Below are positions 18,356-32,700 of a stretch of DNA of 64,000 nucleotides, in pieces. A program made the translations under genes and the position numbers. The stretch's first letter is position 1. Every line of letters starts with the position of its first letter. Below the pieces are notes generated by a model, which saw only the letters and a program-made list of their open reading frames with translations, was not told the origin of the DNA and searched no databases. The stretch spans positions 2,932,001 to 2,996,000 of the forward strand of contig NZ_CP011270.1 in assembly GCF_001610835.1 (NCBI RefSeq), in the 5' to 3' direction. The DNA comes from Planctomyces sp. SH-PL14. GTDB taxonomy: Bacteria; Planctomycetota; Planctomycetia; Planctomycetales; Planctomycetaceae.

Positions 18356-19132
18356 CTATGGCCCGGTGAAGTGCAGGAGCCGCAGGATCTCGGACCGGAG
18401 CCGCAGGAACTCGGCGCCGTCGCGATGCCGCGGCCGCTCGAGCGGGACGCTCAAGATCCGGTCCACGCGACCGGGGCGGGGCGTCATGAGGACGATCCGG
18501 TCGCTCATGTAGATCGCCTCGTCGATGTCGTGCGTGACCAGCACCATCGTGGTCTTCCGCGCGGTCCAGATCCGCAGGACCTCGTTCTGCATCTGCATCC
18601 GTGTGAACTGGTCGAGGGCGCCGAGCGGCTCATCCAACAACAGGACCCGGGGGTGGTTGATGAGAACCCGGGCGAGGGCCGCCCGCTGGGCCATCCCGCC
18701 GGAGAGCTGGTGCGGATAGGCATGCTCGAATCCCGTCAGGCCGACGAGGCGGAGGTACTCGTCGACTTCGTGGCGGAACTGCGCCAGGACGCCGCGGGCC
18801 ACGAGTCCGGACTCGATGTTCCGGCGGACGGTCAGCCACGGAAAGAGGTTCGGAGCCTGGAACATCAGGCCCCGGTCGGAGCTCGGGGCGCGGATCGGAT
18901 CGGTTCCGATCTGGAGCTCGCCCGACGTCGGCTGATCGAGCCCTGCCAGGAGGCGGAGGAGCGTCGACTTGCCGCAGCCGCTGGGGCCGACGAGGGAGAC
19001 GACTTCGCCCGCCGCGACCGTGAGATCGAGATGATCGATGGCGACCAGCGTCGTTCCGCTCTCGGTCGTGAACTCCTTCCGGAGGCCGCGGATCGTGAGG
19101 GAGGAGGACTCGCCATTGGCCGTCGAGGTCAC
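18356..19132 (-). CDS. ABC transporter ATP-binding protein (NitT/TauT type)
   Basis: The 258-residue ATPase would energise import through the permease encoded just upstream. Walker A is GPSGCGKST, the Q-loop region MFQAPNLFPWLTV, the signature LSGGMAQR, Walker B VLLLDEPLGALD, and the switch VTHD. FTRMQMQNE after Walker B is typical of the SsuB/TauB/NrtD group. The GTG at 19132 overlaps the permease stop in a GTGA arrangement, implying translational coupling; the longer frame from 19270 lies inside the permease. It is the last gene of the long minus-strand block. Confidence 0.93.
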   Translation of the reverse strand: MTSTANGESSSLTIRGLRKEFTTESGTTLVAIDHLDLTVAAGEVVSLVGPSGCGKSTLLRLLAGLDQPTSGELQIGTDPIRAPSSDRGLMFQAPNLFPWLTVRRNIESGLVARGVLAQFRHEVDEYLRLVGLTGFEHAYPHQLSGGMAQRAALARVLINHPRVLLLDEPLGALDQFTRMQMQNEVLRIWTARKTTMVLVTHDIDEAIYMSDRIVLMTPRPGRVDRILSVPLERPRHRDGAEFLRLRSEILRLLHFTGP

Positions 19133-20163
19133 CACCGGATCACCCCCTTCTGCCAGTTGAGGACCCGGTCCCGGACGAGGAACAGGAGCGTCATGAGGCT
19201 GGAGAAGAAGACCGACATGATGACCAGCGCGGCGTAGACGTTGGCGTATTCGAGGTAGCCCTGCTGCCACTTGAGATACCAGCCGAGCCCCGCCGAGACG
19301 CCCACGGTCTCGGCGACAATCAACGTGAGGAAGGCGGCCCCGAGTCCCATGAAGAGACCGAGGAAGATGCTCGGGAGGGCGGCGGGCAGCGCGACCCGGA
19401 AGATGAGGTACCGCGGGCCCGCGCCGAGCGTCCGGGCGACGTCTAGGAAGGCGATCGGGACGTTCGCCAGTCCCGAGGCAGTGAGCATCGTGACCGGGAA
19501 CCAGACCGCGAGCGCGATGAGGGCCGCCCCGGAGAGAAAGTGGCTTGGAAAGAGGACCATCATCAGCGGGACGTAGGCGGTGGCGGGAATCGGGCCGACC
19601 ACTTTGAGGAGCGGCATCCCCCAGTAGCGGATCGTCCGGAACCAGCCGATCAGGATGCCGCAGACGAGCCCCGCGGCGACGCCCGCCGTGTAGCCCGCCA
19701 GCAGGAGCCGGAGCGAGTGGTACGTGCTGACGGCGAGCATGGTTCGGTCGTCATACAGGCTGAGGAGAACCCGCTGCGGTCCGGGGAAGTAGGGGAGCGG
19801 CAGGAGGTTTCCCTTGACGGTGACGAGGTTCCAGAGGGCGAGGAGGAAGGCCACGCCGCCGACGAGCGGAGCGTTGCGGCGGACCCAGGGAGAGAACCGC
19901 GTCCTCATCGCGCCAACGATGGCGAACACGAGTGTGCAGGCCAGCAGTCCCACGAGCAGTCCGCTGTAGAGCCTCGTCGGCGGGACGGCCTGCCGATGAG
20001 GAAGCCCCCATTCGACGAGCAGGGCCGCCGCCACGACCGCGGCCGGCGCGACGAGGCGTCCCCACCCCGATCGGTCTCCGGAAGGGAGCGGCGGGCGCGA
20101 ATCCGTCCGTCCGGCAATCGGTTCCTCGACAGGAGAGGGTGGGGGAAGCGTTTCAGCAGACAA
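19129..20163 (-). CDS. ABC transporter permease (NitT/TauT type)
   Basis: The 344-residue inner-membrane protein has a proline-rich cytosolic N terminus of about 35 residues, two or three extra helices, and then the BPD_transp_1 core with about six helices. The EAA-like coupling region reads DVARTLGAGPRYLIFRVALPAALPSIFLGLFMG (about residues 240-272), ahead of GLGAAFLTLIVAETVG. It would pair with the ATPase downstream and the lipoprotein SBP upstream. The most likely start is TTG at 20163, with GGAG about ten bases upstream; it lies 54 bases after the SBP stop codon. Substrates of this branch include nitrate, sulfonates, taurine and pyrimidine precursors, and the actual one cannot be told. Confidence 0.88.
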   Translation of the reverse strand: MSAETLPPPSPVEEPIAGRTDSRPPLPSGDRSGWGRLVAPAAVVAAALLVEWGLPHRQAVPPTRLYSGLLVGLLACTLVFAIVGAMRTRFSPWVRRNAPLVGGVAFLLALWNLVTVKGNLLPLPYFPGPQRVLLSLYDDRTMLAVSTYHSLRLLLAGYTAGVAAGLVCGILIGWFRTIRYWGMPLLKVVGPIPATAYVPLMMVLFPSHFLSGAALIALAVWFPVTMLTASGLANVPIAFLDVARTLGAGPRYLIFRVALPAALPSIFLGLFMGLGAAFLTLIVAETVGVSAGLGWYLKWQQGYLEYANVYAALVIMSVFFSSLMTLLFLVRDRVLNWQKGVIRW

Positions 20164-20217
20164 CGAGACCAGACTCCGGACAAGACGCGATGAACGGGAG
20201 CGAGACGCGCGACAGGC

Positions 20218-21402
20218 CTACTGGCCGCAGAGTTCGGTTCGGGAGACGCACTGGTCGCAGCACATGAAGCGGAAGTTCGTGTCGGTGGCGAACAGCCGGG
20301 CGAGGGCGACCGGGTCGAGCGCCGGGGGGGCTCCGCCGCCGGCGACCTTCTCGACCTGCACCCCCTTGAGCCATTCGTCCGTGACTCCGTCGAGATCGGT
20401 CCAGGCCCGCCGGGCGAGTTCGTCCGGATCGGTCGACGAATTGAGGAGCCCGGCGGTCTTCATCTCGCGGGCGGCCGAGAGGATGCTGTCGCGGCACTTC
20501 GTGACGCCGGGCATGAAGGTCAGCTTGCCGATGGCATGGCCGTTGATCTCGGCGGTCGAGGCGACGTACTTGCTGGCGACCGAGAGCTCGCCGGCAGCGC
20601 CGGGGTTCGTGTCGACCCACAGGGCGCCCTTAAGGAGGGCGCGCGTCACCTTGGCGGCGGAGGCGGGGTCGCGGGCGAGGAACTTGCCGCTGACGACGGT
20701 CGCGCAGCAGTATTCGTCGCGGTAGGGGGCGTCGAGGGCCTGGTCGGCGATCGTGTGGACGTTCTTCGTGGCGGCGAGGATCGAGCCGAGCGGCTCCGAG
20801 TCGGCGACGGCGTCGATGTCGCCGTTGTCGAGAGCGAGGCCCATCACCTCGGGGGAGACGACCTTCCAGGTGACGTCGCTCCGGGGGTCCATTCCGGCCG
20901 CCTTGAGAGCCCGGCTGGCGAAGAGGAACGGCGGACTTCCCATCGTCGGGATGCCGATCGTCTTCCCCTTGAGGTCGGCGACCGTCTTGACCGAGGACTT
21001 GGGATCGGCCTGGACTCGCAGGCATCCGGAGTGGACCCCGCCGGTGATCTTGACGTCGAGCCCCTGCTCGATCGGCTTCAGGAGGTACATGATGAGCGTG
21101 TAGTTGGCGTCGAACCGCCCCAGGCCGAGTCCGTCCCGCAGGCCGTCCCAGTCGGTCTTCACGAACTCGACCTCGATCCCCTCCTCTTTGAAGAAGCCCT
21201 TCTCCGCGGCGACGAACATCGCCGCCTCGCAGGTGAGGCCGAGGTAGCCGATCTTCACCTTGGCCGGGCCGGCGGGTGCCTGGGCGGCGGGCTTCGTCCC
21301 GGGGCCGGCCGCCTCCTGGCATCCCAGGATCGTCGCCAGCAGGCAGCTCAGGCCGAGGCCGAGCAGACGGCGGTGCGGGAAAGAGGTGGTGGGAGCAGTC
21401 AT
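20218..21402 (-). CDS. NMT1/THI5-like substrate-binding lipoprotein with C-terminal Cys cluster
   Basis: The 394-residue lipoprotein has a lipobox (LLATILGC, Cys28) and then a periplasmic binding fold: KVKIGYLGLTCEAAMFVAAEKGFF, then VADLKGKTIGIPTMGSP, as in NMT1/SsuA/TauA-like proteins. It would deliver the ligand to the permease encoded downstream. The C terminus is odd: it ends with a Cys-rich tail, FMCCDQCVSRTELCGQ, giving CC-x2-C-x6-C, not usual for this family and suggestive of metal or thiol chemistry. The ATG at 21402 leads directly into the signal peptide. The gene follows the heptad-repeat protein gene by 106 bases. Confidence 0.87.
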   Translation of the reverse strand: MTAPTTSFPHRRLLGLGLSCLLATILGCQEAAGPGTKPAAQAPAGPAKVKIGYLGLTCEAAMFVAAEKGFFKEEGIEVEFVKTDWDGLRDGLGLGRFDANYTLIMYLLKPIEQGLDVKITGGVHSGCLRVQADPKSSVKTVADLKGKTIGIPTMGSPPFLFASRALKAAGMDPRSDVTWKVVSPEVMGLALDNGDIDAVADSEPLGSILAATKNVHTIADQALDAPYRDEYCCATVVSGKFLARDPASAAKVTRALLKGALWVDTNPGAAGELSVASKYVASTAEINGHAIGKLTFMPGVTKCRDSILSAAREMKTAGLLNSSTDPDELARRAWTDLDGVTDEWLKGVQVEKVAGGGAPPALDPVALARLFATDTNFRFMCCDQCVSRTELCGQ

Positions 21403-21508
21403 GAGAGACTCCGGACGAGAAGCGGAAGGGCCGGCTGATCAGGGAATGAGCAGGACGACACGAGCAGGCAGGAGCCGGCGGTCCGGCTCCCGCCTGCGGG
21501 GGCGGACG

Positions 21509-21838
21509 TTACTTGCCCATGATCTTCTTCTGGTTTGACAGGATCTTGTCCTGGTTCGCCTTGATCTCCCCCTGGTTGGAGACGATCAGGTCGAGCTTCC
21601 CCTGGTTGGCGAGGATCTGCTCCTGGTTCGAGACGATCGACGACTGGTTCTTGAGGAGTTTGTCGATCTTGGCCTGGTTCGTGAGGATCGTGTCCTGGTT
21701 GGCGATGATCGCCTTCTGGTTGGCGACGAGCTTGTCGAGCTTGGCCTGATTCCCTTCGATCTTCTTCTGGTTCGCCAGGATCTTTTCCTGGTTGGAGATG
21801 ATCTTCTCCTGGTTGCTCAGCACCTTGTCGTCCGCCAT
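21509..21838 (-). CDS. small NQ-repeat coiled-coil protein
   Basis: The 109-residue protein consists almost entirely of units of the type NQxx(I/L)xx. Thirteen NQ pairs occur at residues 9, 16, 23, 30, 40, 47, 54, 64, 71, 78, 88, 95 and 102. The spacing is seven with a ten-residue step recurring, so the main period is 24 residues (7+7+10). Hydrophobic residues at constant positions predict a long amphipathic helix or coiled coil; the conserved Asn-Gln pair is unusual. There is no signal peptide. The ATG lies 91 bases after the UnbU-like stop, inside the long minus-strand block. I do not know a described family. It could be an oligomerisation or scaffold protein, which is inference. Confidence 0.8.
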   Translation of the reverse strand: MADDKVLSNQEKIISNQEKILANQKKIEGNQAKLDKLVANQKAIIANQDTILTNQAKIDKLLKNQSSIVSNQEQILANQGKLDLIVSNQGEIKANQDKILSNQKKIMGK

Positions 21839-21929
21839 GGTGAAACTCCGGAAGGGTGAAACAGAAAGGGAGACGTGAACGAGAGACGTGGAACGAAGAA
21901 GTGAAAGCAGACGTTTTCGAGATCGATTG

Positions 21930-23144
21930 TCACCGGTCGCGCGGCTGAGCGAGGACAGGACGGCGCGGCTCGGCGGGCGCCGCGGCGAGATCGGAGTCCG
22001 CGGCCGCCGCGATCGTCAGGGAATCGCTTCCGGGAACCGGAGTGCGGATGGGTGTCGACGACGCGGCCGCCCTGCGGGCTTTGCGGGAGTCGGCATAGAT
22101 CTCGATCAGGTTCGCCGCCGGGCCGACGATGAACAGCGCGTGGTACAGCGAGTGGACGTCCTTGAAGACGAGCCGCAGCATCGTCTCCATGACCGCCACC
22201 AGGACCGCCACGACGGTCTGGCTCGTCCAGCCGCGGGTCGTCGTCTTGGGGTCGGTGATCATGAAGAAGATGTAGAGCTGGAACATCGGGCTCGTCATCG
22301 GGGCGATTTCGGTCTGCCACGGATGACCGGTGACGAAGCTCCGCAGGAACGACAGCCCGATGAACGAGAGCACGAAGGCGAACGGGATGTGGAACCGGCC
22401 CAGCCGGTACATAATAAGGCTGCCGAGGACCCAGATCGTCAGGAGGGCGAGGCCGTTGTTCCCCGCCTGGACCGTGAGACTGGCGACGTGGGCCGGCGCC
22501 AGGAAGAGCATCATCGTCACGCCGAAGTTCGTCGGGTTCCAGATGTGCCGGTCGCCGATCCGCAGGACGTACTTGGACGTAATCGAGATCAGCCCGCACA
22601 GGACGAACGGCCACAGCGACGAGGACTTGATCAGGATCCCGACACTGATCCCCGAGACATAGGCGCTCGCCAGGTGCGGCCACCGTCCCCAGAAGAAGCG
22701 GCCCAGGACCATCTCGGCGACAATCGTGGTCACGATCGCCACGAAGGTCGGGGAGTATTCGAGGATCCGTCCGCCGCTCGCCGTCACGAGCCAGGGGGGA
22801 GCGGGGTGGTTTTCGAGGATGCTGAATGCGGCGTCCCCGAGGGCGAGGACGACCGTGACGAGGAGCGGGGCCTGGAAGCGGCGATCCTTCCAGACGAGCT
22901 TGTGCCACACGGCCAGGAGCGCGCCGAGCAGGAGAATGACACCCAGGACCCGCGGGAGCGAGGGATCGACCGTGACCCCGCCGAACTGCGTCAGGAGGGC
23001 GGCGAGCGAGCGGTTCAGAGACGCGCGGCCGGCGTAGAACCCGCCCAGCAATACAAGGGTCGCTGCCGTCCGCCACGCAAAGCCCGCCTTGGAGACGCGC
23101 GGTGGGCAGGACGGACAGGCAGGTGAGCCGGGAGGGCAATTCAT
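21930..23144 (-). CDS. UnbU-like membrane protein (NqrB/RnfD superfamily)
   Basis: The 404-residue integral membrane protein has about nine or ten hydrophobic segments. Family marks of the NqrB/RnfD superfamily are SKYVLRIGDRHIWNPTNFG (compare HxFNPAAFG) and FFMITDPKTTTRG (compare MATDPVS). The SGAT-type threonine motif that carries covalent FMN in NqrB and RnfD is not evident, so electron transport is uncertain. Relatives called UnbU occur next to UnbV in enediyne warhead cassettes. The N terminus has a Cys/Pro-rich stretch (CPPGSPACPSCPP). Its ATG overlaps the UnbV-like stop in an ATGA, so the two are translationally coupled. The C-terminal 50 residues are a Pro/Ala-rich, probably disordered tail. 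Confidence 0.82.
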   Translation of the reverse strand: MNCPPGSPACPSCPPRVSKAGFAWRTAATLVLLGGFYAGRASLNRSLAALLTQFGGVTVDPSLPRVLGVILLLGALLAVWHKLVWKDRRFQAPLLVTVVLALGDAAFSILENHPAPPWLVTASGGRILEYSPTFVAIVTTIVAEMVLGRFFWGRWPHLASAYVSGISVGILIKSSSLWPFVLCGLISITSKYVLRIGDRHIWNPTNFGVTMMLFLAPAHVASLTVQAGNNGLALLTIWVLGSLIMYRLGRFHIPFAFVLSFIGLSFLRSFVTGHPWQTEIAPMTSPMFQLYIFFMITDPKTTTRGWTSQTVVAVLVAVMETMLRLVFKDVHSLYHALFIVGPAANLIEIYADSRKARRAAASSTPIRTPVPGSDSLTIAAAADSDLAAAPAEPRRPVLAQPRDR

Positions 23145-25051
23145 GGCGTCGGCTCCTTCGAGTCGGTCTCGTCAAGGCGATGGAGAGTGCGGACCGCCGG
23201 CTCCTTGAGGACGGTCGTCCGGCCGGAGGGCCACGTCACCACAGCCTCCTCGATCACGGCAGTCTTTCCCAGACCGAAATGGAGACGGAGCATGCTCTGG
23301 GAGGCGTAGGCGTCCCCCGCGGTCACGACCTGCTGCTGCCGCCGCGGGGAGGGATCCTCCGCGGTCCGCCAGATCACGACGACCTCGGCTCCGACGGCGC
23401 TGCGGTTGCTCCACGGAATCTGGGCCGGCCGGCCGCTCGCGTTGGCATCCGGTCGAGCTCCGCCAGTGAGCTGGAACTGGATCCAGTCCTGTCCTTCGGC
23501 GACGGTGTTGCGGTAGAGGAGCGCCTTCCCGTTCTGGCTGGCGACCACGACGTCGATGACGCCGCGGTTCGACAGGTCGGCGAGCGCGACCGCCCGCCCG
23601 TCGTTCGTCTCGGTGACGCCGACGGCGGCGCAGACGTCCGTGAAGTCCCCTCCCTTGTTCAGCCAGACGCACTTCGTCTGGAAGCCGGCGAGGCTCTGAT
23701 CGCCGATCGGAGGCCAGAATTTGGCGTCGCCGATGAGGCCCTTGAGGCCCCCGGCGATCTTGCCGTAGTCGTACCAGTAGCTCTTGCCGACGGCGGCCGA
23801 GATGTAGCCGTTGGTCTGGAACAGATCGAGCCAGCCGTCGTTGTTGAGGTCGGCGAACTTGGCCCCCCAGCTCCAGCCGCCGCGCTCGATGTTGAGCGTC
23901 CCGGCCTGATTCAGGTATCGCTGGACGCCCCGCCCCGCTCCCTCGTCGATTTCGCCGATCGGGACCCACAGGTTGTTCCCCTGGACGAGGTTGCCGGGCT
24001 CCGTGATGTTCGTGATGTAGACCGACTGCCGGCCTTCGTTCAGCGGATCGCCGAGGCTGGCGCTCATGCCGCTCTTGGGGGTGACGCCGATCCCGCTGGC
24101 ATACCCCACTTCCTCGAACCGCTCCCCGCCGCGGCTGGCGAAGAACTCCGAGACGCCGTAGTCGTTGGCCAGCACGAGGTCCGGATAGCCGTTTCCGTCG
24201 AGGTCCGCCGAGACGACGCCGAGAGTCCAGCGTGTGCTCTCGATCCCGACCGCCTTCGTGACGTTCTCGAACTTTCCGTCGCCGAGGTTCTTGAGCAGGA
24301 CCTTGCCGCCGCCGTTCGTGGCGAACTCAAACGACTCCGGCATGATCCGGGTCGTCGAGAGGTTCCACAGGTCGATGTTGTCCGGCCAGTAGCCGGCGAG
24401 GAACAGGTCGAGCCGGCCGTCGCGGTTGTAGTCGAGCCAGCAGGCGGCGTTGGCGTTCATCCAGGCCGGGAGACCGGAGCCTTCCGTCACCCGCTCGAAC
24501 CGCTTTCCCTCGATGTTGTGGAACAGCTCCGGCCGGCCCCACCGGTAGACGAGGAGGTCGGGGTAGCCGTCGTTGTCGTAGTCCGCCGCAATCGCACCCA
24601 TGCAGGCGCCGGTCCCGGGCTGGTTGAGGTCGGCCACCCCCATCGCGGCGGCGGTCTCTTCGAACGTCCCGTCCCCCTTGTTGCGGAAGAGGGCGTTCTG
24701 CCCGCCGGCGTCGCTCGTCACAAAGTACAGGTCGAGCCAGCCGTCGGCGTCGTAGTCGAGGACCGTCGCCGCCGCTCCCATCGGGTTGACGAGCGGCATG
24801 ATGTGGGCCAGCTTCGCATCGAGCGTCGGGGCGTGGTGCTGGAACTCGATCCCCGCCTCTTTGGCCGATTCCGTGAAGTGGAACCCGTACCGCTCGAGAG
24901 GCGTGGCCCGCGACCCGCCTCGGGAATCCGCCACTCCCTCCTGTCCGCCGATGCGATTCCAGAGGTTTTCGCCCGAGCCCCGCAGCGCCACGAAGACGAG
25001 CAGCCCGACGAAAAGGCAGGTGATGACCGCCTGCTTCTGTCCGCGACTCAT
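23141..25051 (-). CDS. UnbV-like FG-GAP/ASPIC (CRTAC1-family) protein
   Basis: The 636-residue protein has an N-terminal anchor helix (ITCLFVGLLVFVALRG) followed by a periplasmic or surface beta-propeller. At least six FG-GAP/VCBS calcium-type motifs are visible, for example DYDADGWLDLYFV, DYDNDGYPDLLVY, DYNRDGRLDLFLA, DLDGNGYPDLVLA and DLNNDGWLDLFQT. The C-terminal ASPIC/UnbV domain reads GAEVVVIWRT and LRLHFGLGKTAVIEEAVVTWPSG. Human CRTAC1 and enediyne UnbV share this layout; the biochemical role is unknown. The ATG at 25051 has AGGAGG upstream and overlaps the stop of the preceding TPR lipoprotein gene (ATGA). The longer frame from 25927 is spurious. Confidence 0.9.
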   Translation of the reverse strand: MSRGQKQAVITCLFVGLLVFVALRGSGENLWNRIGGQEGVADSRGGSRATPLERYGFHFTESAKEAGIEFQHHAPTLDAKLAHIMPLVNPMGAAATVLDYDADGWLDLYFVTSDAGGQNALFRNKGDGTFEETAAAMGVADLNQPGTGACMGAIAADYDNDGYPDLLVYRWGRPELFHNIEGKRFERVTEGSGLPAWMNANAACWLDYNRDGRLDLFLAGYWPDNIDLWNLSTTRIMPESFEFATNGGGKVLLKNLGDGKFENVTKAVGIESTRWTLGVVSADLDGNGYPDLVLANDYGVSEFFASRGGERFEEVGYASGIGVTPKSGMSASLGDPLNEGRQSVYITNITEPGNLVQGNNLWVPIGEIDEGAGRGVQRYLNQAGTLNIERGGWSWGAKFADLNNDGWLDLFQTNGYISAAVGKSYWYDYGKIAGGLKGLIGDAKFWPPIGDQSLAGFQTKCVWLNKGGDFTDVCAAVGVTETNDGRAVALADLSNRGVIDVVVASQNGKALLYRNTVAEGQDWIQFQLTGGARPDANASGRPAQIPWSNRSAVGAEVVVIWRTAEDPSPRRQQQVVTAGDAYASQSMLRLHFGLGKTAVIEEAVVTWPSGRTTVLKEPAVRTLHRLDETDSKEPTP

Positions 25052-28000
25052 GGCGTCCTCCTGGCCGCAGTCGGCGCGGCGGAGGGGGCGGGGCTTCGAG
25101 GAGGACGCAGCCCCCGCTCGAAGAGTTCCGGGGTCACGTACCGCGTATGAAAGACGTCCCAGTCCTGCGGGTGCCGCCGGTAGGTGGGATCCTCTTCCAG
25201 GGTCGTTGGCGGGGTGTCGTAGGTGGTCATGTCGTGGGCCGGCAGCGGCAGGACGAACTTGCCGAAGCGGGTGTTGAAGTCCCCGTCCTTGACCCAGCCG
25301 TCGGAGACCCAGACGAAGTCCCGTTTCCAGCCGGCGGGCGGGGGAGTGGGGACCGGATACCGCAGGACGACCTCGTCCCCCGCGGTCAGGATGGCGTACC
25401 GGTCGTCGACGCTGCGGACGAGCTCCTGAATGTCCCCGAACCGCGTATGATACCCGATCAGGTCCCGCCAGGGCTGACCGATCCCGACGAGCTGATTGTA
25501 ATGCGGAAGTTCGGGCGAGCCGGGATTGGCCTGCGTCATCGCGACGACCCCGCGGAACCGCAGATCGACCTGCGTGGGGACGAGATCCGTCCGCTGCACC
25601 GCCCCCGGATCGAGGCCCCGGGCGACTGCCAGCGAATCCCAGTAGATCTCCATCGTCGTCCGCAGACGCAGCCGCCGCGGGACCCCCTCCCCGGCCAGCC
25701 CGTCGAGCCGAACGAGGACGGTCTTGTTCTTCCCCGCCGGGAAGCCGAGCTTGTCGCGGGCGGTCTTCCAGGCGCCGGTCCACGGGCGGTCGTCTTCGAT
25801 CCTGCCGTCGGCCGGGACATCCGGAGCTTCGAGGACGAGTCCCTGGGGGCGGGCGTGTTCGCCTTGTTCGAGGGCGTAGTTCACGGAGCTGTCGGTCGGG
25901 TGGACCCAGCCGCGGGCGATGAGCCACACCGGACCGTCCGCGGGATCAACCGGCCCGAGGTCGAACTCGACCCAGTGGTCGTTCGTGACTCCCTGGTATC
26001 GGCCGCGGCCTGCTCGGTCGAGATGCACGCCATCGGTCTCCCGGACCTCCTCCGTCGCGTCCTGGCCGAGGTGATCCCAGGCCCGGACGACGGGCTGCCG
26101 CTTCTCGACGAGCTGGAACGTCGGCTCCGACGGTTCCATGCAGAATCGCTCGTCGACGAAGAACTCCGTTCCCGCCGGATGATCGACGGCGAACAGGCCG
26201 ACCTGATCGAAGAAGTGCGTCTCCCACAGGTTCGCGTTGACGCGGAGGTCGTAGTGGCCGTCCCGTTCGACGAGCTGCTCGCCGGGGATCCGGACCCAGT
26301 CGGTCGTCTGAAGGAAGCCTCCTTTATTGGAGGCGTTGATATACATCCCCAGCGGCGTGCTCCACATGAAGTCGGTCACGAACTCGAACCGCTCGCCGTT
26401 CCAGGCGTAGAGGAACGGGCACGACCCCTTGAGCCGCTGGAGGGCGACGACGGTGGTGTCCGGCTTGAGGTTGAACTCGAACTGCGGAGCCCCGTTCGGC
26501 CAGTCGATCCGGGCGATGTCCGCCTGCGGCCGCTCGCCGAGTCCGAAGTGGACCGCCGGGCGCTCGATCGGCTGCTTCGCCACGAGCGTCCCGGAGCGGA
26601 TCTCGATCGAGCCGCCGATCCCGAACGAGTTAATCCGGTTGTCGCCGTCCGCCTTCGTCGCCTGCGGCCGGAGCGTCAGCCAGTGGTAGTTCTTCTCGCC
26701 GCGGCTTTGCAGCTGCAGCGGCTGGCCGTCGGGATCGAGCCCCAGGAGACCGAGCCGGCCGGTCCCCGCCAGGTCGGCCGCGGCCAGGAGATTCGGGGGA
26801 AGTTTGGCGGCGGCGGGTTGGAAGGATTTACCCGCTTCGCCCAGCCACAGCAGCGAGCTGGACGGTCCCGAGGCCAGGAGATCGATCGCGCCGTTGTTGT
26901 CGAAGTCGCCCGTGAACAGTCGGACGGCCCCGGGGGCGGTCTGGGAATCGAGTCCCGCGAAGCGGCCGAGCTCCGCGACAGTCCACCTGGCCCGCTTTCC
27001 TTCATCGGCAAGGACCAGCAGCCCGCCGTCCTGCCGGAGGGTCACGAGGTCGAAGGCTCCGTCTTCATTGGCGTCCGCGACGGCGATCGCCAGGAAGCGA
27101 TCGGTCGGCGCGGAGGCCGGCCAGGGCCGGAACGAGGACATCCGGTCGTTGGCGTAAACCCGCAGCCGTCCCTCTGCGTCCAGCAGGGCCGCGTCGGGAA
27201 CGCCGTCCGCGTCGAAGTCGCCCCAGGCGAACTGCTGCGGGCCCTTGGCCTCCGCGAAGACCGGCTCCGGCCTGAAGGTCCCGTCGAAGTTGTTCCGCAG
27301 CTGGAGCGGCGAGTCGGACGCCCGGGAGAGGAGCAGGTCGAGATCGGCGTCGAGGTCGAGGTCCGCCGCCAGCGCGGCGCCGTAGTGGCCGGTCAGAACG
27401 TCCTCCGGCAGACCGGTCTTGGCCGTCACATCTTCGAACGTGCCGTCCTCCTTCTGCTGCAGGAACCGCAGCCCCTGGGGACCCGCCACGACGAGGTCGG
27501 TCCGCTGGTCATTGTTCCAGTCGATGGCGACGATCCCGCCGGGGGCCGCCGGGATCGAGGGGATAGAGACCTCCTGATCGGCGCGGTGGAGCTCCGTGTC
27601 GCTCGCGAGGAACGTCACCGGATTCCCCTCTGACGAGAGCCACACCGGCAGGACGGTCTTCCAGGCTCCGGCCGGAAACGCGGCCGATTCGTCGCGGGCA
27701 AAGGCGATCGCGGCATCGGCCGCCGCGGGCTGCGGCACGCTCGCGGGCAGTGTGAGGAAGGCCCGCAGGGGATCGCCGAGCAGCGAATCCGGGGGCTGGA
27801 TCTCGGCCGCCTTCCGGGCGTAACCGCGTTCCGCCTTGAGGACGTTGGTGAACCGCAGGAGCGGGGCAACCGTGGAGGGCTTCTTCGGGTCGGCGAGCGT
27901 CCGCTTCAGGTCCGCCAGCATCGTCTGCGTCCGGGTTTCCCAGTTCGGCGCGAGGGCGTCGAACTGCTTCAGCGTGTCCGTCACCGCGGCCGCGTCGTTC

Positions 28001-28665
28001 CGCCGGGCCGCGGTCCGCAGACGCTCCGAGAGGACCATCAGATCGTCCGGCCGCTGCGCGAGGATCTGCTCCATCAGCCGCTGGTACTCGGCCTCGCTTC
28101 CGGGAGCCCGCTCCTGGTCGATCAGGCGGGCGAGGCTGAACAGCGTCCGGACGTCTCCGGGGTCCTTTTTAAGGGCCTTCCGCAGGTGCCCAGCCGCCGC
28201 TCCGAAGTCCCCCTGCTTCTGCTTCAGGAGCCCCAGGAGCTTTTCGATGGCCGGATCGTTCGGGGCTCGCTTTTGAGCCTCGGCCAGATCCCGCTCCGCT
28301 TCCGGAAGGCGGCCGACGCGGAGGTTCAGCAGTCCCCGATCGGCCCAGGCGGCGGGTTCGTCCGGGATGAGTTCGACCGCCCGGTTGAGGCTGGCTTCCG
28401 CCATCTGCGGCACGTCGGCGTCGAGAGCCGCGAGCCCCAGTTCGAAGGCCCCGACGAACTCGCCGTAGCTGGCGGGCAGCGCGCGAGGGGCCGGCGCCGC
28501 GGCGGGTTCGCTGGCAGTCGGCGCCGGAGGGCTGGGACGCTTCGGCTCGCAGCCGCTGGGAACCGCGCCGAGGATCAGGACCGCGACGATCGCGGCGGCG
28601 TTCCGCGCAGCGGCGATCGCGTGGGGACGGGGCGGTGCCAAGCGAGGATAGGAGGAATCAGGCAT
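25048..28665 (-). CDS. large TPR / FG-GAP / ASPIC lipoprotein
   Basis: The 1205-residue lipoprotein has a signal peptide and lipobox (ILGAVPSGC, Cys39). TPR-like helices cover about 65-260 (ASLNRAVELIPDEPAAWADRG, HLRKALKKDPGDVRTLFSLA). A beta-propeller with FG-GAP motifs covers about 375-690 (DWNNDQRTDLVVA, DLDLDADLDLLLS, DFDADGVPDAALL, DANEDGAFDLVTL, DFDNNGAIDLLAS). An ASPIC segment near 690-760 reads GIGGSIEIRSG, VHFGLGERP and IDWPNG. The last ~430 residues form a further domain (CPFLYAWNGERFEFVTDFMW onward) that I cannot name. It starts 34 bases after the AhpD-like gene and overlaps the UnbV-like gene. A role in surface display or assembly of protein complexes is only inferred. Confidence 0.88.
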   Translation of the reverse strand: MPDSSYPRLAPPRPHAIAAARNAAAIVAVLILGAVPSGCEPKRPSPPAPTASEPAAAPAPRALPASYGEFVGAFELGLAALDADVPQMAEASLNRAVELIPDEPAAWADRGLLNLRVGRLPEAERDLAEAQKRAPNDPAIEKLLGLLKQKQGDFGAAAGHLRKALKKDPGDVRTLFSLARLIDQERAPGSEAEYQRLMEQILAQRPDDLMVLSERLRTAARRNDAAAVTDTLKQFDALAPNWETRTQTMLADLKRTLADPKKPSTVAPLLRFTNVLKAERGYARKAAEIQPPDSLLGDPLRAFLTLPASVPQPAAADAAIAFARDESAAFPAGAWKTVLPVWLSSEGNPVTFLASDTELHRADQEVSIPSIPAAPGGIVAIDWNNDQRTDLVVAGPQGLRFLQQKEDGTFEDVTAKTGLPEDVLTGHYGAALAADLDLDADLDLLLSRASDSPLQLRNNFDGTFRPEPVFAEAKGPQQFAWGDFDADGVPDAALLDAEGRLRVYANDRMSSFRPWPASAPTDRFLAIAVADANEDGAFDLVTLRQDGGLLVLADEGKRARWTVAELGRFAGLDSQTAPGAVRLFTGDFDNNGAIDLLASGPSSSLLWLGEAGKSFQPAAAKLPPNLLAAADLAGTGRLGLLGLDPDGQPLQLQSRGEKNYHWLTLRPQATKADGDNRINSFGIGGSIEIRSGTLVAKQPIERPAVHFGLGERPQADIARIDWPNGAPQFEFNLKPDTTVVALQRLKGSCPFLYAWNGERFEFVTDFMWSTPLGMYINASNKGGFLQTTDWVRIPGEQLVERDGHYDLRVNANLWETHFFDQVGLFAVDHPAGTEFFVDERFCMEPSEPTFQLVEKRQPVVRAWDHLGQDATEEVRETDGVHLDRAGRGRYQGVTNDHWVEFDLGPVDPADGPVWLIARGWVHPTDSSVNYALEQGEHARPQGLVLEAPDVPADGRIEDDRPWTGAWKTARDKLGFPAGKNKTVLVRLDGLAGEGVPRRLRLRTTMEIYWDSLAVARGLDPGAVQRTDLVPTQVDLRFRGVVAMTQANPGSPELPHYNQLVGIGQPWRDLIGYHTRFGDIQELVRSVDDRYAILTAGDEVVLRYPVPTPPPAGWKRDFVWVSDGWVKDGDFNTRFGKFVLPLPAHDMTTYDTPPTTLEEDPTYRRHPQDWDVFHTRYVTPELFERGLRPPRSPAPSAAPTAARRTP

Positions 28666-28699
28666 GAACGAGGTGCGACGGGAAGTCCGAGACGGGCGA

Positions 28700-31387
28700 T
28701 CACTTGCCGTTGCCGGCCGGAGCGGCGGCGGGAGCCGGGCTCTCGGTCGGGGGCATCGGGCGAAGGTACTGGAACACGTTCTCCCTTTCGAGGGGGAGCT
28801 GGAAGCCGTCGGAGACCCGCGTCATGTACAGGCCCCGGCAGAGCCACCAGTAGAGGGACAGGGCTTCCTTGGGGCCGTAGTCCTTTTCGAGCTGGCGATA
28901 GTCCTCGGGGGTCAGGTCCCAGGGGGTGCGGCTCAGCTTGCGGGCGTAGGCGTAGGCCCGCTGCTCGCGCGGCTCGAAGGCGGACCAGTCGGCTCCCGCC
29001 AGGCGGGAGGTCCGGTCGGCGATCCCCTGGCTGTCGAGTCCGGCGACCTCCAGCAGCATCTCGCAGTGCCCCATGCAGTAGTTGCAGCCGATGGCCCGGG
29101 TCTGGATCCAGAACAGGCTTTCTTCGAGGACGCGGTCGTTGGGGGCTTCGGTCCAGAGCGTCCGCGTGGCGATGCTCCACGGCACGGCAAGCTCTGGGAC
29201 GTAGCCGGAACAGACCAGGTTCCAGACGATGCGGGTCGGCCGGGCTGCCATGGCGGGGGGAAGGTTCTTTTTGACGTCGTCCCAGACCGGGACCGGGAGC
29301 CGGGGCTTACGGTTTCGCTGGCTCTCCAGCCGCGTCTGGAGCGTTCCGTACGACGTGGAGGCCCAGTCGTCCGCCTCGGGGACGATCGTCTCGCCATCCG
29401 TCCGCAGGACTGGGAGCGGGTTGTTCGGGGGGACGAACGGGGCGAACTGGAAGACTTCGTCGGTGAACGTGACCGCCAGGGGTGGCAGCGGTCCCCCCTC
29501 TTCCATCGGCAGGTTGAGACCGAGGAGGAACCGGTCCTGGAAGTTTCCGTAGGCGCCGAGCAGGACCATTGCGGCGACCGGCTTGTCCCCGAACCGCTGC
29601 CGGAGGGATTCGAACAGGGAATCCGGGATCGTCGGGGCGGCGACCGTCAAGAGCTTGGCGAACTCGAGCGGTTCCCGGTCGGCTTCGGGCCAGAGGGACG
29701 AGGGGCCGGTGAGCGCCTGGATGTCCGCGTCGGTGCCGCCGCCGCGGCGGAGATCGGCGAGAGCGTCGGCCTGGGTGTATTCACAGCGGTTGGCGTGAGC
29801 GATCACCCACCGCATCTTGGCCCGGAGGGTCGGCTCGACGGGGCTCTTTGTTCGCTGGGCGAAATCAAGCTGGAGCATCGCCGCCGCGGTCCGGGGAAGG
29901 CGTCCCGCGACCGCGCGGACCCACACCGGCAGGGGCTGGCCCGCTCCCGAGACGACTTTCGGGAGGGCCTTCCAGGCTTCGTCGCTCGTCAAGACCGGGA
30001 CCGGCGGCGGTTCGGAGACCGGCCGCTTCACGTTGTAGTAGTCAAAGAAGACGTTGTCGCTTTCGAGGGTCAGCTGGAACCCGTTCGAGATGCGGGTCAT
30101 GTAATGGTAGCGGCTGGCGTTCAGCAGCAGGCCGGCGGCCCGGGCGGGGCCGAAGTCGTTTACGACCTGCGCGACGTCCTGCGGTGAGACCTTGGCGAGA
30201 GCCTGAGTGAGCTTGCGGGCGAAGGCTAAGGCATGCTGTTCAGCAGGGGAAAAACTCGACCAGTCGTTCCCGGCGAGCAGCCGGCTGCGGTCGGCGATCT
30301 CGGCGGGGGAGAGGCCGGCGACCTCCCAGTTCATTTCGCAGTGGCCCATGCAGTAGGGGCAGTCGAGGGCCCGCGTGACGACCCAGAAGAGACTGCCGCC
30401 GAACATGCGGTCGAGCCGCGGTCCCAGCTCCGACCCGGCGGTCCGCAGGTAGACTTCGAACGGGATCGCCAGCTCCGGCGCGTAACCGAAGACGATCCGG
30501 TACCAGACGATGTCGCTCGGGCGGTCAAAGAGCCCCGAAGGGAGCGAACCGGCGAACTCGCTCCATTCCGGGACACGGAGGCGGGTGGGCTTGCGGCGCT
30601 GAGTCTCGAGTTTGGTCTGGAGGTCGTCGTAGCTCACCTTGGCCCATTCGGCATCCGGGGGGACGTCGTTGGGAGCCGCCGACTTGGGCCAGGGGGGAAG
30701 GTTCGCCGGAGGGGCGGTCGGACGGGCCAGGACGGCCGCGTCGAACGTAATGTCGGCCGGCGGCGCTGCGGCTTCCGTGGCCGGGACCTGGAGGCAGATC
30801 ATCAGCCGGTCGTGGAAGTTGGCGTACGCCATCAGGAGGACCATCGAGGCGGCGGTCCGGTCGCCGAACGCATCGACCAGGCCGGCGAACTCCTTGTCGG
30901 TCACCTGGCTGGACGTGACCGACATCTTGCGGGCGAAGTCGAGAGCCTTTCGTTCCTCGGAGCTCCAGCCGGGATAGCCCTCTTGTGTCAAGCCTTCGAC
31001 TCGCGCCGCGTCCACGCCGCCGCGCCGGGCGTCGGCGAGAGCCTGGGCGGCGCCGAAGGCCGAGCCATTGGCGTGGGCCGAGACCCAGCGCATCCCGGCG
31101 CGGAGGCCGAGAGGGATCGGTCCGCGAGTCCGCTGAGCCAGATCGAGTTCGAGGAGGGTGGCGGTCGAACGCGGGAGTTCGCCCGCCAGGATCCGGGCCC
31201 AGGGAGGGAGCGAAGCGCCGCTCCCCTGCCGGGCCGCGGGGAGGCGTTCCCAGGCCTGTGAGTTCGAGAGAGCGGGAAAGGTCATGGAACCCTCGCCGAA
31301 GGAAAGGGAGGTGGAGAGGAGGGCGAATGCGGCGATGGCGAACGGAGCCGCCCAGCCGCAACGGAGCCGGAGGATGCGTGAAGACAT
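28700..31387 (-). CDS. tandem four-domain AhpD/carboxymuconolactone-decarboxylase-like secreted protein
   Basis: The 895-residue protein has a signal peptide (residues 1-33) and an internal duplication (about 45-455 and 470-885). Each half holds a degenerate AhpD-like domain (AHANGSAFGAAQALAD / AHANRCEYTQADALAD) followed by one with a redox motif, CPYCMGHC (Cys343, Cys346, Cys350) and CNYCMGHC (Cys768, Cys771, Cys775). In AhpD-like enzymes the CxxC pair does thiol peroxidase chemistry and a His follows four residues later; here Cys is at that place with His just before it. An export signal is unusual for this family. The ATG at 31387 is preferred over 31450 because the signal peptide follows. 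The gene lies between the deiodinase-like and TPR lipoprotein genes. Confidence 0.85.
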   Translation of the reverse strand: MSSRILRLRCGWAAPFAIAAFALLSTSLSFGEGSMTFPALSNSQAWERLPAARQGSGASLPPWARILAGELPRSTATLLELDLAQRTRGPIPLGLRAGMRWVSAHANGSAFGAAQALADARRGGVDAARVEGLTQEGYPGWSSEERKALDFARKMSVTSSQVTDKEFAGLVDAFGDRTAASMVLLMAYANFHDRLMICLQVPATEAAAPPADITFDAAVLARPTAPPANLPPWPKSAAPNDVPPDAEWAKVSYDDLQTKLETQRRKPTRLRVPEWSEFAGSLPSGLFDRPSDIVWYRIVFGYAPELAIPFEVYLRTAGSELGPRLDRMFGGSLFWVVTRALDCPYCMGHCEMNWEVAGLSPAEIADRSRLLAGNDWSSFSPAEQHALAFARKLTQALAKVSPQDVAQVVNDFGPARAAGLLLNASRYHYMTRISNGFQLTLESDNVFFDYYNVKRPVSEPPPVPVLTSDEAWKALPKVVSGAGQPLPVWVRAVAGRLPRTAAAMLQLDFAQRTKSPVEPTLRAKMRWVIAHANRCEYTQADALADLRRGGGTDADIQALTGPSSLWPEADREPLEFAKLLTVAAPTIPDSLFESLRQRFGDKPVAAMVLLGAYGNFQDRFLLGLNLPMEEGGPLPPLAVTFTDEVFQFAPFVPPNNPLPVLRTDGETIVPEADDWASTSYGTLQTRLESQRNRKPRLPVPVWDDVKKNLPPAMAARPTRIVWNLVCSGYVPELAVPWSIATRTLWTEAPNDRVLEESLFWIQTRAIGCNYCMGHCEMLLEVAGLDSQGIADRTSRLAGADWSAFEPREQRAYAYARKLSRTPWDLTPEDYRQLEKDYGPKEALSLYWWLCRGLYMTRVSDGFQLPLERENVFQYLRPMPPTESPAPAAAPAGNGK

Positions 31388-31515
31388 GGAGGACGATCCC
31401 GTGAGTGGTGGTGATCGGTCAGCGGGTTCGATGGGCACGCTTCGCCTCAAAATTGGTAGGAAGCCCGGTCGAAATCCCGGGCTCCCGCGGTCGCTCAGCG
31501 GGTCTGGCCGACCTT

Positions 31516-32700
31516 TCAGTCCTTCGCGGCATCGGCGATCGTCAGGATCAGAGCCTGTTCGGCCTCACGCAGTTTGAACCCGAACGGACCGCGGGCGTTC
31601 TTGAAGGCGATCCGGCCATCGGTGTCGATGACGTACAGGCGGTTCGGCATGCCGCTGTAGGTCGCACCGACAACGTCGTCGGTGGTGTCGACGAGGAATG
31701 GGACGTCGAGGTCGAGGTGCTTCTGGCAGGTCGCGGCGATCTCGCGGCGCTCGGTGTTGTTCTGCGGCTGGCGGGGATCGATCCCGATCCGGCGGTTCGA
31801 ATTCATCCACCAGCCATCCTGCGGGTGGGCTTCGCGGACGTAGACGAGGAAGATCTTCGCCTGGTCGCGGTAGCGGTTGTAGAACTTTTCGATGTTTCCC
31901 GCCTGAGTGCGGAACGGGCCGCAGGTGAAGTTGCCGAAGATCAGGACGACCGGCTTCTCGCCGATCTCCTTTGAGAGCGTCACCGTTTCGCCGGTCAGGG
32001 TCTGGAGCGTGAAGTCCGGGGCGGCGGCGTTGAGATCCGGCCCCGGCTGCTGCGAACCGATCTCCTGCCGCTGGAGGCCGAGGACGAGCGTGCTGGCGCT
32101 CGGCATGTCGGCCGGCGGGGCATCGTTCCGGGACGACGCCGGAGGCTGGAGCTGCTCACGGATTTCATCCAGTGAGATGAAGCCGTCCTTCTCCCCGCCG
32201 AGGCGGCGGAACAGTTCCTCGAACTCCTCGGCGGTCACCTTCCCGTTTCCATCCTGGTCCGATCGGCCGAAGACGAAGTTTGCCGGAGAGCGGGACATCG
32301 TGACCTCGCTCCAGTCGAAGTCTGAGTCCGTCAGGACGCCGTCGCCGTTCTTGTCGAGCCGCGCGAACGGGACTTCGCCGAGGGAGGTTTCCTCCCGGGC
32401 GATCTCGCCGTCGCTGTTCTTGTCGAACCGTTCCTTAAGCGTGGCCCACGGGTAGCGGGTATGCGCCTTCGAGAGGGCGAACCAGCCGTCGGTCGGGCCG
32501 AGCATCGCCCCTTTCAGGATGTCGTCGAGCATCCGGCGGGCTTCGGAGTTCCTCGGCAGGGACTTCTTGAGATCGGCAGCGGCGGCTTGCGCTTCGGGAG
32601 TCAGTTCCGGAACGGGAGGCGTGGGTTCGTCGGCGACCGCCAGGCTTGTGGCGAGGAGCGTCGAGAGAAGCGAAGCAGATCGAGCGACTCGGGCGGTCAT
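31516..32700 (-). CDS. secreted EF-hand / iodothyronine-deiodinase-like thioredoxin-fold protein
   Basis: The 394-residue exported protein (signal peptide 1-23) contains four EF-hand loops, at about 93-104 (DKNSDGEIAREE), 115-126 (DKNGDGVLTDSD), 147-158 (DQDGNGKVTAEE) and 169-180 (less canonical). A thioredoxin-like domain from about 225 onward matches the deiodinase/AhpC-TSA group: PDFTLQTLTGETVTL, then LIFGNFTCGPFRTQAGNIEKFY with Cys260 at the site of the selenocysteine in vertebrate deiodinases, and FLVYVREAHPQDGW. Reductive dehalogenation is known for the animal enzymes only; the bacterial substrate is unknown. GGAGG lies eight bases before the ATG. It is the first gene of the minus-strand block that ends with the ABC transporter. 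Confidence 0.88.
   Translation of the reverse strand: MTARVARSASLLSTLLATSLAVADEPTPPVPELTPEAQAAAADLKKSLPRNSEARRMLDDILKGAMLGPTDGWFALSKAHTRYPWATLKERFDKNSDGEIAREETSLGEVPFARLDKNGDGVLTDSDFDWSEVTMSRSPANFVFGRSDQDGNGKVTAEEFEELFRRLGGEKDGFISLDEIREQLQPPASSRNDAPPADMPSASTLVLGLQRQEIGSQQPGPDLNAAAPDFTLQTLTGETVTLSKEIGEKPVVLIFGNFTCGPFRTQAGNIEKFYNRYRDQAKIFLVYVREAHPQDGWWMNSNRRIGIDPRQPQNNTERREIAATCQKHLDLDVPFLVDTTDDVVGATYSGMPNRLYVIDTDGRIAFKNARGPFGFKLREAEQALILTIADAAKD

Follow-up and report, generated by a model that had tools for sequence, protein, structure and literature searches.

A modular gene system around UnbU and UnbV in Planctomyces sp. SH-PL14 and other bacteria

A gene system built around UnbU and UnbV, proteins best known from gene clusters for enediyne antibiotics, is described here from a 64,000-nucleotide stretch of Planctomyces sp. 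SH-PL14 (contig NZ_CP011270.1, positions 2,932,001 to 2,996,000; hereafter the window), which belongs to a genome of one 8.44 Mb contig (G000; the window is G000:C1:2932001-2996000). The constant partner of UnbU and UnbV is a lipoprotein with TPR repeats (TPR) and not the whole block of nine genes in which the three lie. The block consists of two joined units. Unit 1 runs from TPR to an ABC-type ATPase (ATP); it begins with the core triad TPR, UnbV and UnbU, which is followed in the window by the small protein NQ, the binding protein SBP, the permease PERM and ATP. Unit 2 is a deiodinase-like protein (DIO) with a tandem AhpD-like protein (CMD). The composition of the system is well supported, and this modular envelope system is widespread, conserved and apparently undescribed; no description of such an UnbU/UnbV system was found in the open-licence PMC literature. 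The explanation we prefer, with a probability of about 0.35, is that the core and its partners form a periplasmic membrane redox complex involving a thiophilic ligand and probably also some halogenated compound.

The recurring partner genes make the role of UnbU and UnbV testable. The pair occurs without enediyne genes in several phyla, including the cultured Limnoglobus roseus and Silvibacterium bohemicum, and can be studied there apart from polyketide chemistry.

The core triad and its recurrence

Within the phylum, UnbU was found in 19 of 294 genomes, one of the 19 being an RnfD-like match (E 2.8e-4). UnbV lies beside UnbU in 17 of the 19 neighbourhoods, the misses being a contig end and the RnfD-like match, and with starts as chosen the two genes overlap by exactly 4 bases in 8 of 18 phylum pairs. 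Among 170 genomes of the family, nine carry UnbU and four carry UnbU of the window type. A wider scan of GTDB genomes with an UnbU alignment (A2) gave 287 loci, of which the best 80 by similarity were kept, so that this sample leans to close relatives. Counts of neighbouring genes, made by tblastn and clustering of neighbours, refer to 82 loci, namely these 80, the window and G428, a genome from another genus of the family; G361 and G367, on the same contigs as L074 and L128, were each counted once.

Of 69 loci with enough sequence, 68 have UnbV directly upstream of UnbU on the same strand; TPR precedes both in 59 of the 60 public loci, from several phyla, whose upstream sequence is long enough (the exception is L131). 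That TPR, UnbV and UnbU keep this order in 59 of 60 is more than chance. The phylum search alone had suggested that the block is not conserved, a view overturned by the wider scan.

Longer parts of unit 1 also recur. G428 has TPR-UnbV-UnbU-SBP-PERM-ATP in order, at 55-74% identity and without NQ. Limnoglobus roseus (L075) has AsnB-rSAM-FDH-TPR-UnbV-UnbU, a 131-aa protein and then DIO-NQ-SBP-PERM-ATP (AsnB, radical SAM and flavin-halogenase-family genes are treated below; AsnB was assigned here by clustering of an over-long frame). In Gemmata (L077) the triad is followed by DIO-NQ-SBP-PERM-ATP on the opposite strand, and in a metagenome-assembled genome (L133) NQ-SBP-PERM-ATP stands ahead of the triad. 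G367 has TPR-UnbV-UnbU-DIO, and the G361 locus is cut by a contig end.

Other arrangements were seen around the core. UnbU and UnbV are apparently fused, UnbU first, in proteins of 944-1143 aa (L043:9200-12034, L045:2205-5636 and L044). In many acidobacterial loci, among them members of the group L084-L092, L116, L124 and L125, a second UnbV-like gene, about 30% identical, follows UnbU. A small, secreted-looking CxGPNC protein is encoded near the core in L075:11118-11513, L077:17450-17851, L122:372-800, L128:107-565 and L143:55-489; these loci span both types of module described below, and none was found in the window. An FAD-dependent oxidoreductase (GESLDWSAP) lies upstream of TPR in L085:3240-4583, L095:2961-4493 and L098:2166-3611.

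Partner modules

Two modules accompany the core. The first is the ATP-binding cassette (ABC) set of the window, in which an NMT1-like binding protein, a BPD permease and a matching ATPase are adjacent, as in NitT/TauT-type importers. SBP was counted in 21 of the 82 loci, PERM in 22, ATP in 24 and NQ in 12. A close relative of SBP occurs in the 170 family genomes only in G428 (57%); weaker relatives (28-33%) are found in two other family genomes and as a second copy in G000. Eight cysteines (C58, C127, C232, C233, C381, C382, C385 and C392) are invariant in five SBPs (window, G428, L075, L077, L133). Distant SBPs of 20-29% identity, mostly from Acidobacteria, have TC-[HQ]-LTCPVT at the place of C58 in 11 of 13 cases and no cysteine within the last 25 residues. 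By analogy with the family fold, the SBP cysteines would line the ligand pocket.

Associations were tested by Fisher's exact method on the 54 of 82 loci that have TPR and at least 3.5 kb of upstream sequence. NQ, which has relatives in 11 other loci, accompanies the ABC module (7/16 vs 2/38, p 0.0016, uncorrected for ancestry). A phmmer search found no relative of NQ in the PDB. Asparagines at core d positions bind anions in the coiled coils of trimeric autotransporters; of this arrangement NQ shows the IxxNQxx spacing alone.

The best NCBIfam models for ATP and PERM are SaoA and SaoP, of the ABC transporter (SaoX, SaoP, SaoA) presented in part of PMC13188914 as a selenoprotein-rich system, and a Cys/Sec theme in the binding protein is common to both. 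A Sao assignment was rejected: SaoX (45.9/300 bits), SaoP (86/295) and SaoA (232.1/360) all score under cut-off, and no Sao accessory protein was identified here.

The second module contains a polyferredoxin (25 of 82 loci), YtkA (24), YtkM (25) and HisM (23); other neighbours in the 82 loci are a single AhpD-like gene (12) and a porin (7). HisM (alignment A6; L147:1373-1993 and relatives) is a membrane protein with nine invariant histidines and two cysteines, and neither it nor YtkM matches a Pfam or NCBIfam model. Matches to YtkA and weak matches to FixH were found among proteins of the module. It resembles the NapH/MauN and FixG-FixH membrane ferredoxin sets in having a NapH-like polyferredoxin with YtkA/FixH-like proteins, but the polyferredoxin falls far under the NapH cut-offs and its partner HisM has no known family.

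The 82 loci comprise 25 with the polyferredoxin, 25 with the ABC module (SBP or PERM), none with both and 32 with neither. The corresponding numbers in the 54-locus set are 22, 16, 0 and 16 (Fisher p 3.6e-5, uncorrected for ancestry). A quick tree of the C-terminal part of TPR was made from 56 rows, and its 38 labelled rows require no fewer than nine module changes; 500 shufflings of the labels gave a mean of 13 (range 8-17), with nine or fewer in 12 shuffles. Because at least nine changes are needed against a shuffled mean of 13, the modules are partly inherited, yet repeatedly switched. Independent pairs that differ in both modules always do so in opposite directions. Corrected for ancestry, mutual exclusion of the two modules is only suggestive. 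A polyferredoxin was sought in ten ABC-type genomes; eight have none and in two it is far from UnbU. Conversely, 16 stretches lying 10-30 kb out in nine polyferredoxin-type genomes contain no SBP or PERM, and one ATPase match. If it holds in wider sampling, the apparent replacement of an ABC importer by a polyferredoxin set beside one core would be unusual.

A third set consists of a flavin-halogenase-family gene (FDH, 28 of 82 loci), a radical SAM gene (rSAM, 28) and AsnB (25). The weak FDH match of L085 (23%, E 3e-7) is probably another FAD oxidoreductase and was dropped, leaving 27 clear cases. The sequence-only reading of the window had proposed, as one of several options, the handling of a halogenated compound; the halogen link is now stronger because 27 of the 82 loci have an FDH-family gene no more than 7.3 kb from UnbU, and it is still something we infer. 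FDH (alignment A7) matches the tetracycline 7-halogenase (E 2e-73) and PltM (E 6e-70). The halogenases CtcP and PltM are alike to it over about 400 residues, and its K89, invariant in 12 of 12 rows, aligns with the lysine of PltM GIKLGF, which we take to be the catalytic lysine. FDH may instead be a monooxygenase, because the best single-protein NCBIfam models, CmlS and QhpG, are far under their cut-offs. G000 has this set too: AsnB, rSAM and FDH (62, 58 and 40% identity) lie together at C1:1531709-1535604, the FDH frame being C1:1534096-1535607, unlinked to UnbU.

Unit 2 is more loosely attached. DIO scores 482.4 bits against the NF038285 deiodinase family (cut-off 250) and is a member by profile; the family name gives no activity. 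CMD scores 35.3 bits with Pfam CMD (cut-off 23), NF053654 and TIGR01926 being under cut-off, and two CxxC units (DCPYC, GCNYC) alternate in it with units without CxxC. At E 1e-20, 60 of the 170 family genomes have DIO and 29 have tandem CMD; in 23 of these 29 the two genes are within 5 kb of each other. In G428, for example, the two sit at 2.22 Mb, and the genes of the UnbU set at 5.91 Mb. Because DIO and CMD usually form their own pair elsewhere, they make up a unit in itself, which in the window is attached to the core. DIO is present in 5 of the 82 loci; without CMD it lies 139 bases from UnbU in L128, 604 bases in L075, 3.7 kb in L077 and 4.0 kb in L114.

Of four stretches examined, three (L191, L192 and L193, but not L194) have TGA at the position of DIO Cys260; one CxxC of CMD reads CxxTGA in L191. 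These DIO proteins and the CMD of L191 are likely selenoproteins, of which the window has the Cys forms. Deiodinase-like and CMD-like selenoproteins are among those listed in part of PMC13188914. Genuine thiol/selenol redox roles for DIO and CMD are supported by this listing together with TGA at the active cysteine.

Proposed role and competing explanations

The fold of UnbU is central to any account of function. The UnbU model (mean pLDDT 82.8) matches RnfD and NqrB at Z 17.8-19.4, best of all 8rbq_D, an RnfD (Z 19.4, 261 residues, rmsd 4.6), and the PF03116 score is 26.8 bits at a cut-off of 27.7. The alignments behind the structure models contained 55 rows out of 66 available and 60 out of 74, the window included. 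The modelled fold of UnbU is that of NqrB/RnfD, but the covalent-flavin motif is missing from the protein. UnbU is like the RnfD and NqrB subunits of RNF and Na+-NQR in fold, and a polyferredoxin partner is present in half of the typed loci; it differs in the missing flavin motif, and family searches found no other Rnf or Nqr subunit among the nine genes. Selenocysteine in UnbU was considered and rejected: the in-frame TGA of several matches is apparently their own stop read through, at varying places past the conserved part.

The C-terminal part of TPR (aa 735-1205; model pLDDT 86.9) has weak matches resembling carbohydrate-binding modules (VIA-align, Z at most 8.7 over 132 residues) and no Foldseek match under E 0.001. 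PDB profile searches with this part and with HisM gave chance-like rows only.

We infer the assembly of these parts into one complex, and each functional step, as follows. TPR, UnbV and UnbU would form a complex of the inner membrane and periplasm, in which UnbU spans the membrane, the anchored UnbV faces the periplasm and the TPR lipoprotein lies on the same side. Through UnbU, electrons (or else a small ion) may pass to a reaction at the UnbV/TPR side or away from it. The ABC set would import a thiophilic ligand, held by the SBP cysteines, that the core needs or acts on; the polyferredoxin/YtkA/His-rich membrane set would replace it in other genomes. The AsnB-radical SAM-halogenase set may serve the same process by making or modifying a small compound or cofactor, probably halogenated, and the DIO/CMD pair would be a thiol-redox accessory, repeatedly but loosely attached. 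Family membership is what suggests the redox role, the thiophilic ligand and the halogenated compound, each in its turn. Points in favour of this reading are the collinear triad, the core with ABC genes in G428, L075, L077 and L133, the two modules that never share a locus, the FDH set with its presence in G000, the fold of UnbU, the invariant SBP cysteines, an HMA protein in 6 of the 82 loci, the NapH-like and YtkA/FixH-like partners and TGA at the active cysteine in relatives of DIO and CMD.

Several observations weigh against this reading. Most UnbU/UnbV pairs of the phylum have none of the window's partner genes nearby: SBP, NQ and CMD occur in none of the 17 phylum stretches with both UnbU and UnbV, in which a TPR homologue of the C-terminal type, an ABC ATPase and a weak DIO EF-hand match were found once each. 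Neither module lies within about 10 kb of the core in the 32 loci counted above. After correction for ancestry the exclusion of the modules is not significant (at most five usable independent pairs, p 0.06-0.5). The 18 distal control stretches (337,517 bases in all) yielded a NitT-type SBP together with PERM and ATPases once, upstream in Limnoglobus, and an ATPase without the others once. Urea and ammonium channels share the UnbU fold at lower Z, and the covalent-flavin (FMN Thr) motif S/T-x-A-T is found in only 3 of 60 UnbU rows, at unshared places. Unlike CtcP and PltM, FDH keeps GWxW of the WxWxIP motif with IP replaced, the full pattern occurring in none of 29 proteins.

It is possible, if doubtful, that the core constitutes, or helps to mature, an envelope enzyme with copper (or another soft metal) and that the two modules are two routes of metal supply. 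With the same doubt, one route would be import by the Cys-lined SBP with an HMA chaperone, and the other reduction and transfer by a polyferredoxin of NapH/FixG type together with YtkA/FixH-like and His-rich membrane proteins. The eight invariant cysteines of SBP, the HMA neighbour (close to MerP/CopZ-like models), the conserved histidines and cysteines of HisM, the YtkA and FixH matches and the absence of any locus with both modules all fit such a supply. However, HMA is present in just 6 of the 82 loci, no cuproprotein was identified among the genes, the polyferredoxin is far from a NapH by score, and the FDH-rSAM-AsnB set and DIO are left unexplained.

Somewhat unlikely is a transport complex, in which UnbU would be a channel or carrier, the core would export or import a metabolite or protein, and the redox genes would be accessory. 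Urea transporters are indeed the second-best fold group of the UnbU model (Z 10.8, with unrelated folds at about 10.8 and lower), the flavin motif is absent, an ABC importer is present and some loci have TonB-type receptors or porins; yet NqrB and RnfD match far better, and the polyferredoxin partners point to electrons.

A further proposal, which we consider unlikely, is that UnbU-UnbV is a general membrane redox machine for handling halide that serves iodide-dependent steps of warhead assembly in enediyne clusters. Here, without a polyketide synthase (PKS), the pair and TPR would join the flavin halogenase and the deiodinase-like protein in acting on a halogenated metabolite or cofactor, with the ABC and polyferredoxin modules as interchangeable suppliers.

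UnbV, UnbU and UnbL are presumably E3, E4 and E5 of the enediyne cassette. The make-up of the enediyne PKS cassette is given as E3/E4/E5/E/E10 in a portion of PMC5181780. Passages of a 2024 paper (PMC11069151) call the exact roles of TnmE3/E4/E5 still uncertain and iodide essential to tiancimycin production; DUF1702 in enediyne clusters appears in a figure legend of PMC7692728. The cassette and the system described here share homologous UnbU and UnbV genes, adjacent and often overlapping, and a halogen theme; the system differs in having a TPR/FG-GAP lipoprotein and an ABC or polyferredoxin module instead.

A PKS-poor cassette of enediyne type, making a warhead-like product from another acyl supply, is very unlikely. 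All 11 ketosynthase (PF00109) matches of G000 are in frames of 385-503 aa, which bears out the absence of a PKS noted from sequence alone, and the two PKS-sized frames of G428 are not near UnbU. UnbL (DUF1702, PF08012) was found in none of G000, G428, G367, G361, G447, G448, G468 and G458, all of which carry the core. The enediyne thioesterase E10 is not among the nine window genes by family searches; it was not sought genome-wide. What speaks for such a cassette is that five genomes of the same family (L066-L070 in G421, G416, G407, G410 and G443) have DUF1702 with homologous UnbV and UnbU, and four of the five a thioesterase-like gene. Their UnbU is 29-32% identical to that of the window and belongs to a separate cassette; these stretches contain no PKS-sized gene, and in G421 a separate ketosynthase frame of 440 aa lies some 2.6 kb upstream.

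Just as unlikely is that the genes are unrelated and neighbours by chance. In favour of this, few family genomes have UnbU (9/170), DIO-CMD is usually elsewhere and CMD is beside UnbU in the window only; against it, the greater part of unit 1 is found again in three further genera and a metagenome-assembled genome, and the triad in 59 of 60 loci. Chance is refuted for TPR-to-ATP, and chance or loose attachment is possible for DIO-CMD alone.

Layout of the block in the window

The coordinates of the nine genes (Table 1) confirm the sequence-only reading that they lie on one strand from 18356 to 32700 with short gaps or overlaps; no gap exceeds 106 bases. Its family names also hold, by profile scores, for DIO, CMD, UnbV, SBP, PERM and ATP. 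Its single nine-gene block does not survive as a fixed unit and is better described as the two joined units above. In other genera, too, UnbV-UnbU has the ABC genes, NQ and a deiodinase-like gene beside it, so that their association with the pair stands; the tandem AhpD-like gene is near UnbU in the window only (1 of 82 loci).

Table 1. Genes of the block, in order of transcription (signal peptide of DIO, lipobox of TPR and anchor of UnbV judged by eye).
Gene	Position	Strand	Description	Basis
DIO	31516-32700	-	exported deiodinase-like protein with EF hands	NF038285, EF-hand and T4_deiodinase matches
CMD	28700-31450	-	tandem AhpD/CMD-like protein	Pfam CMD
TPR	25048-28665	-	lipoprotein with TPR, FG-GAP, weak ASPIC and beta-rich C-terminal part	Pfam
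UnbV	23141-25051	-	FG-GAP propeller, N-terminal anchor, ASPIC/UnbV domain	Pfam
UnbU	21930-23144	-	membrane protein, predicted NqrB/RnfD fold	PF03116 26.8 bits, structure model
NQ	21509-21838	-	109 aa, coiled-coil-like, IxxNQxx repeats; no signal peptide seen	
SBP	20218-21402	-	NMT1/SsuA-like binding lipoprotein; Cys58, 127, 232, 233 and Cys-rich tail	
PERM	19129-20163	-	NitT/TauT-type permease	BPD_transp_1
ATP	18356-19135	-	NitT/TauT-type ATPase; GTG start at 19135 or 19132	ABC_tran

The gaps are 65 bases between DIO and CMD, 34 between CMD and TPR, 91 between UnbU and NQ, 106 between NQ and SBP and 54 between SBP and PERM. TPR and UnbV overlap by 4 bases, the ATGA of UnbV covering the TPR stop, as do UnbV and UnbU, and the GTG start of ATP overlaps the PERM stop. 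Between 18000 and 33400 no promoter-like site came out of a sigma-70-type scan, and there are 7 terminator-like sites against 7.2 expected. Profile scores are 84.9 bits for SBP (NMT1_2), 67.3 for PERM (BPD_transp_1) and 119 for ATP (ABC_tran). UnbV scores 56.4 bits with UnbV_ASPIC (cut-off 23.4), and TPR has its own match to that model at 23.3 bits, slightly below the cut-off. The whole genome has eight UnbV_ASPIC matches and one UnbU match.

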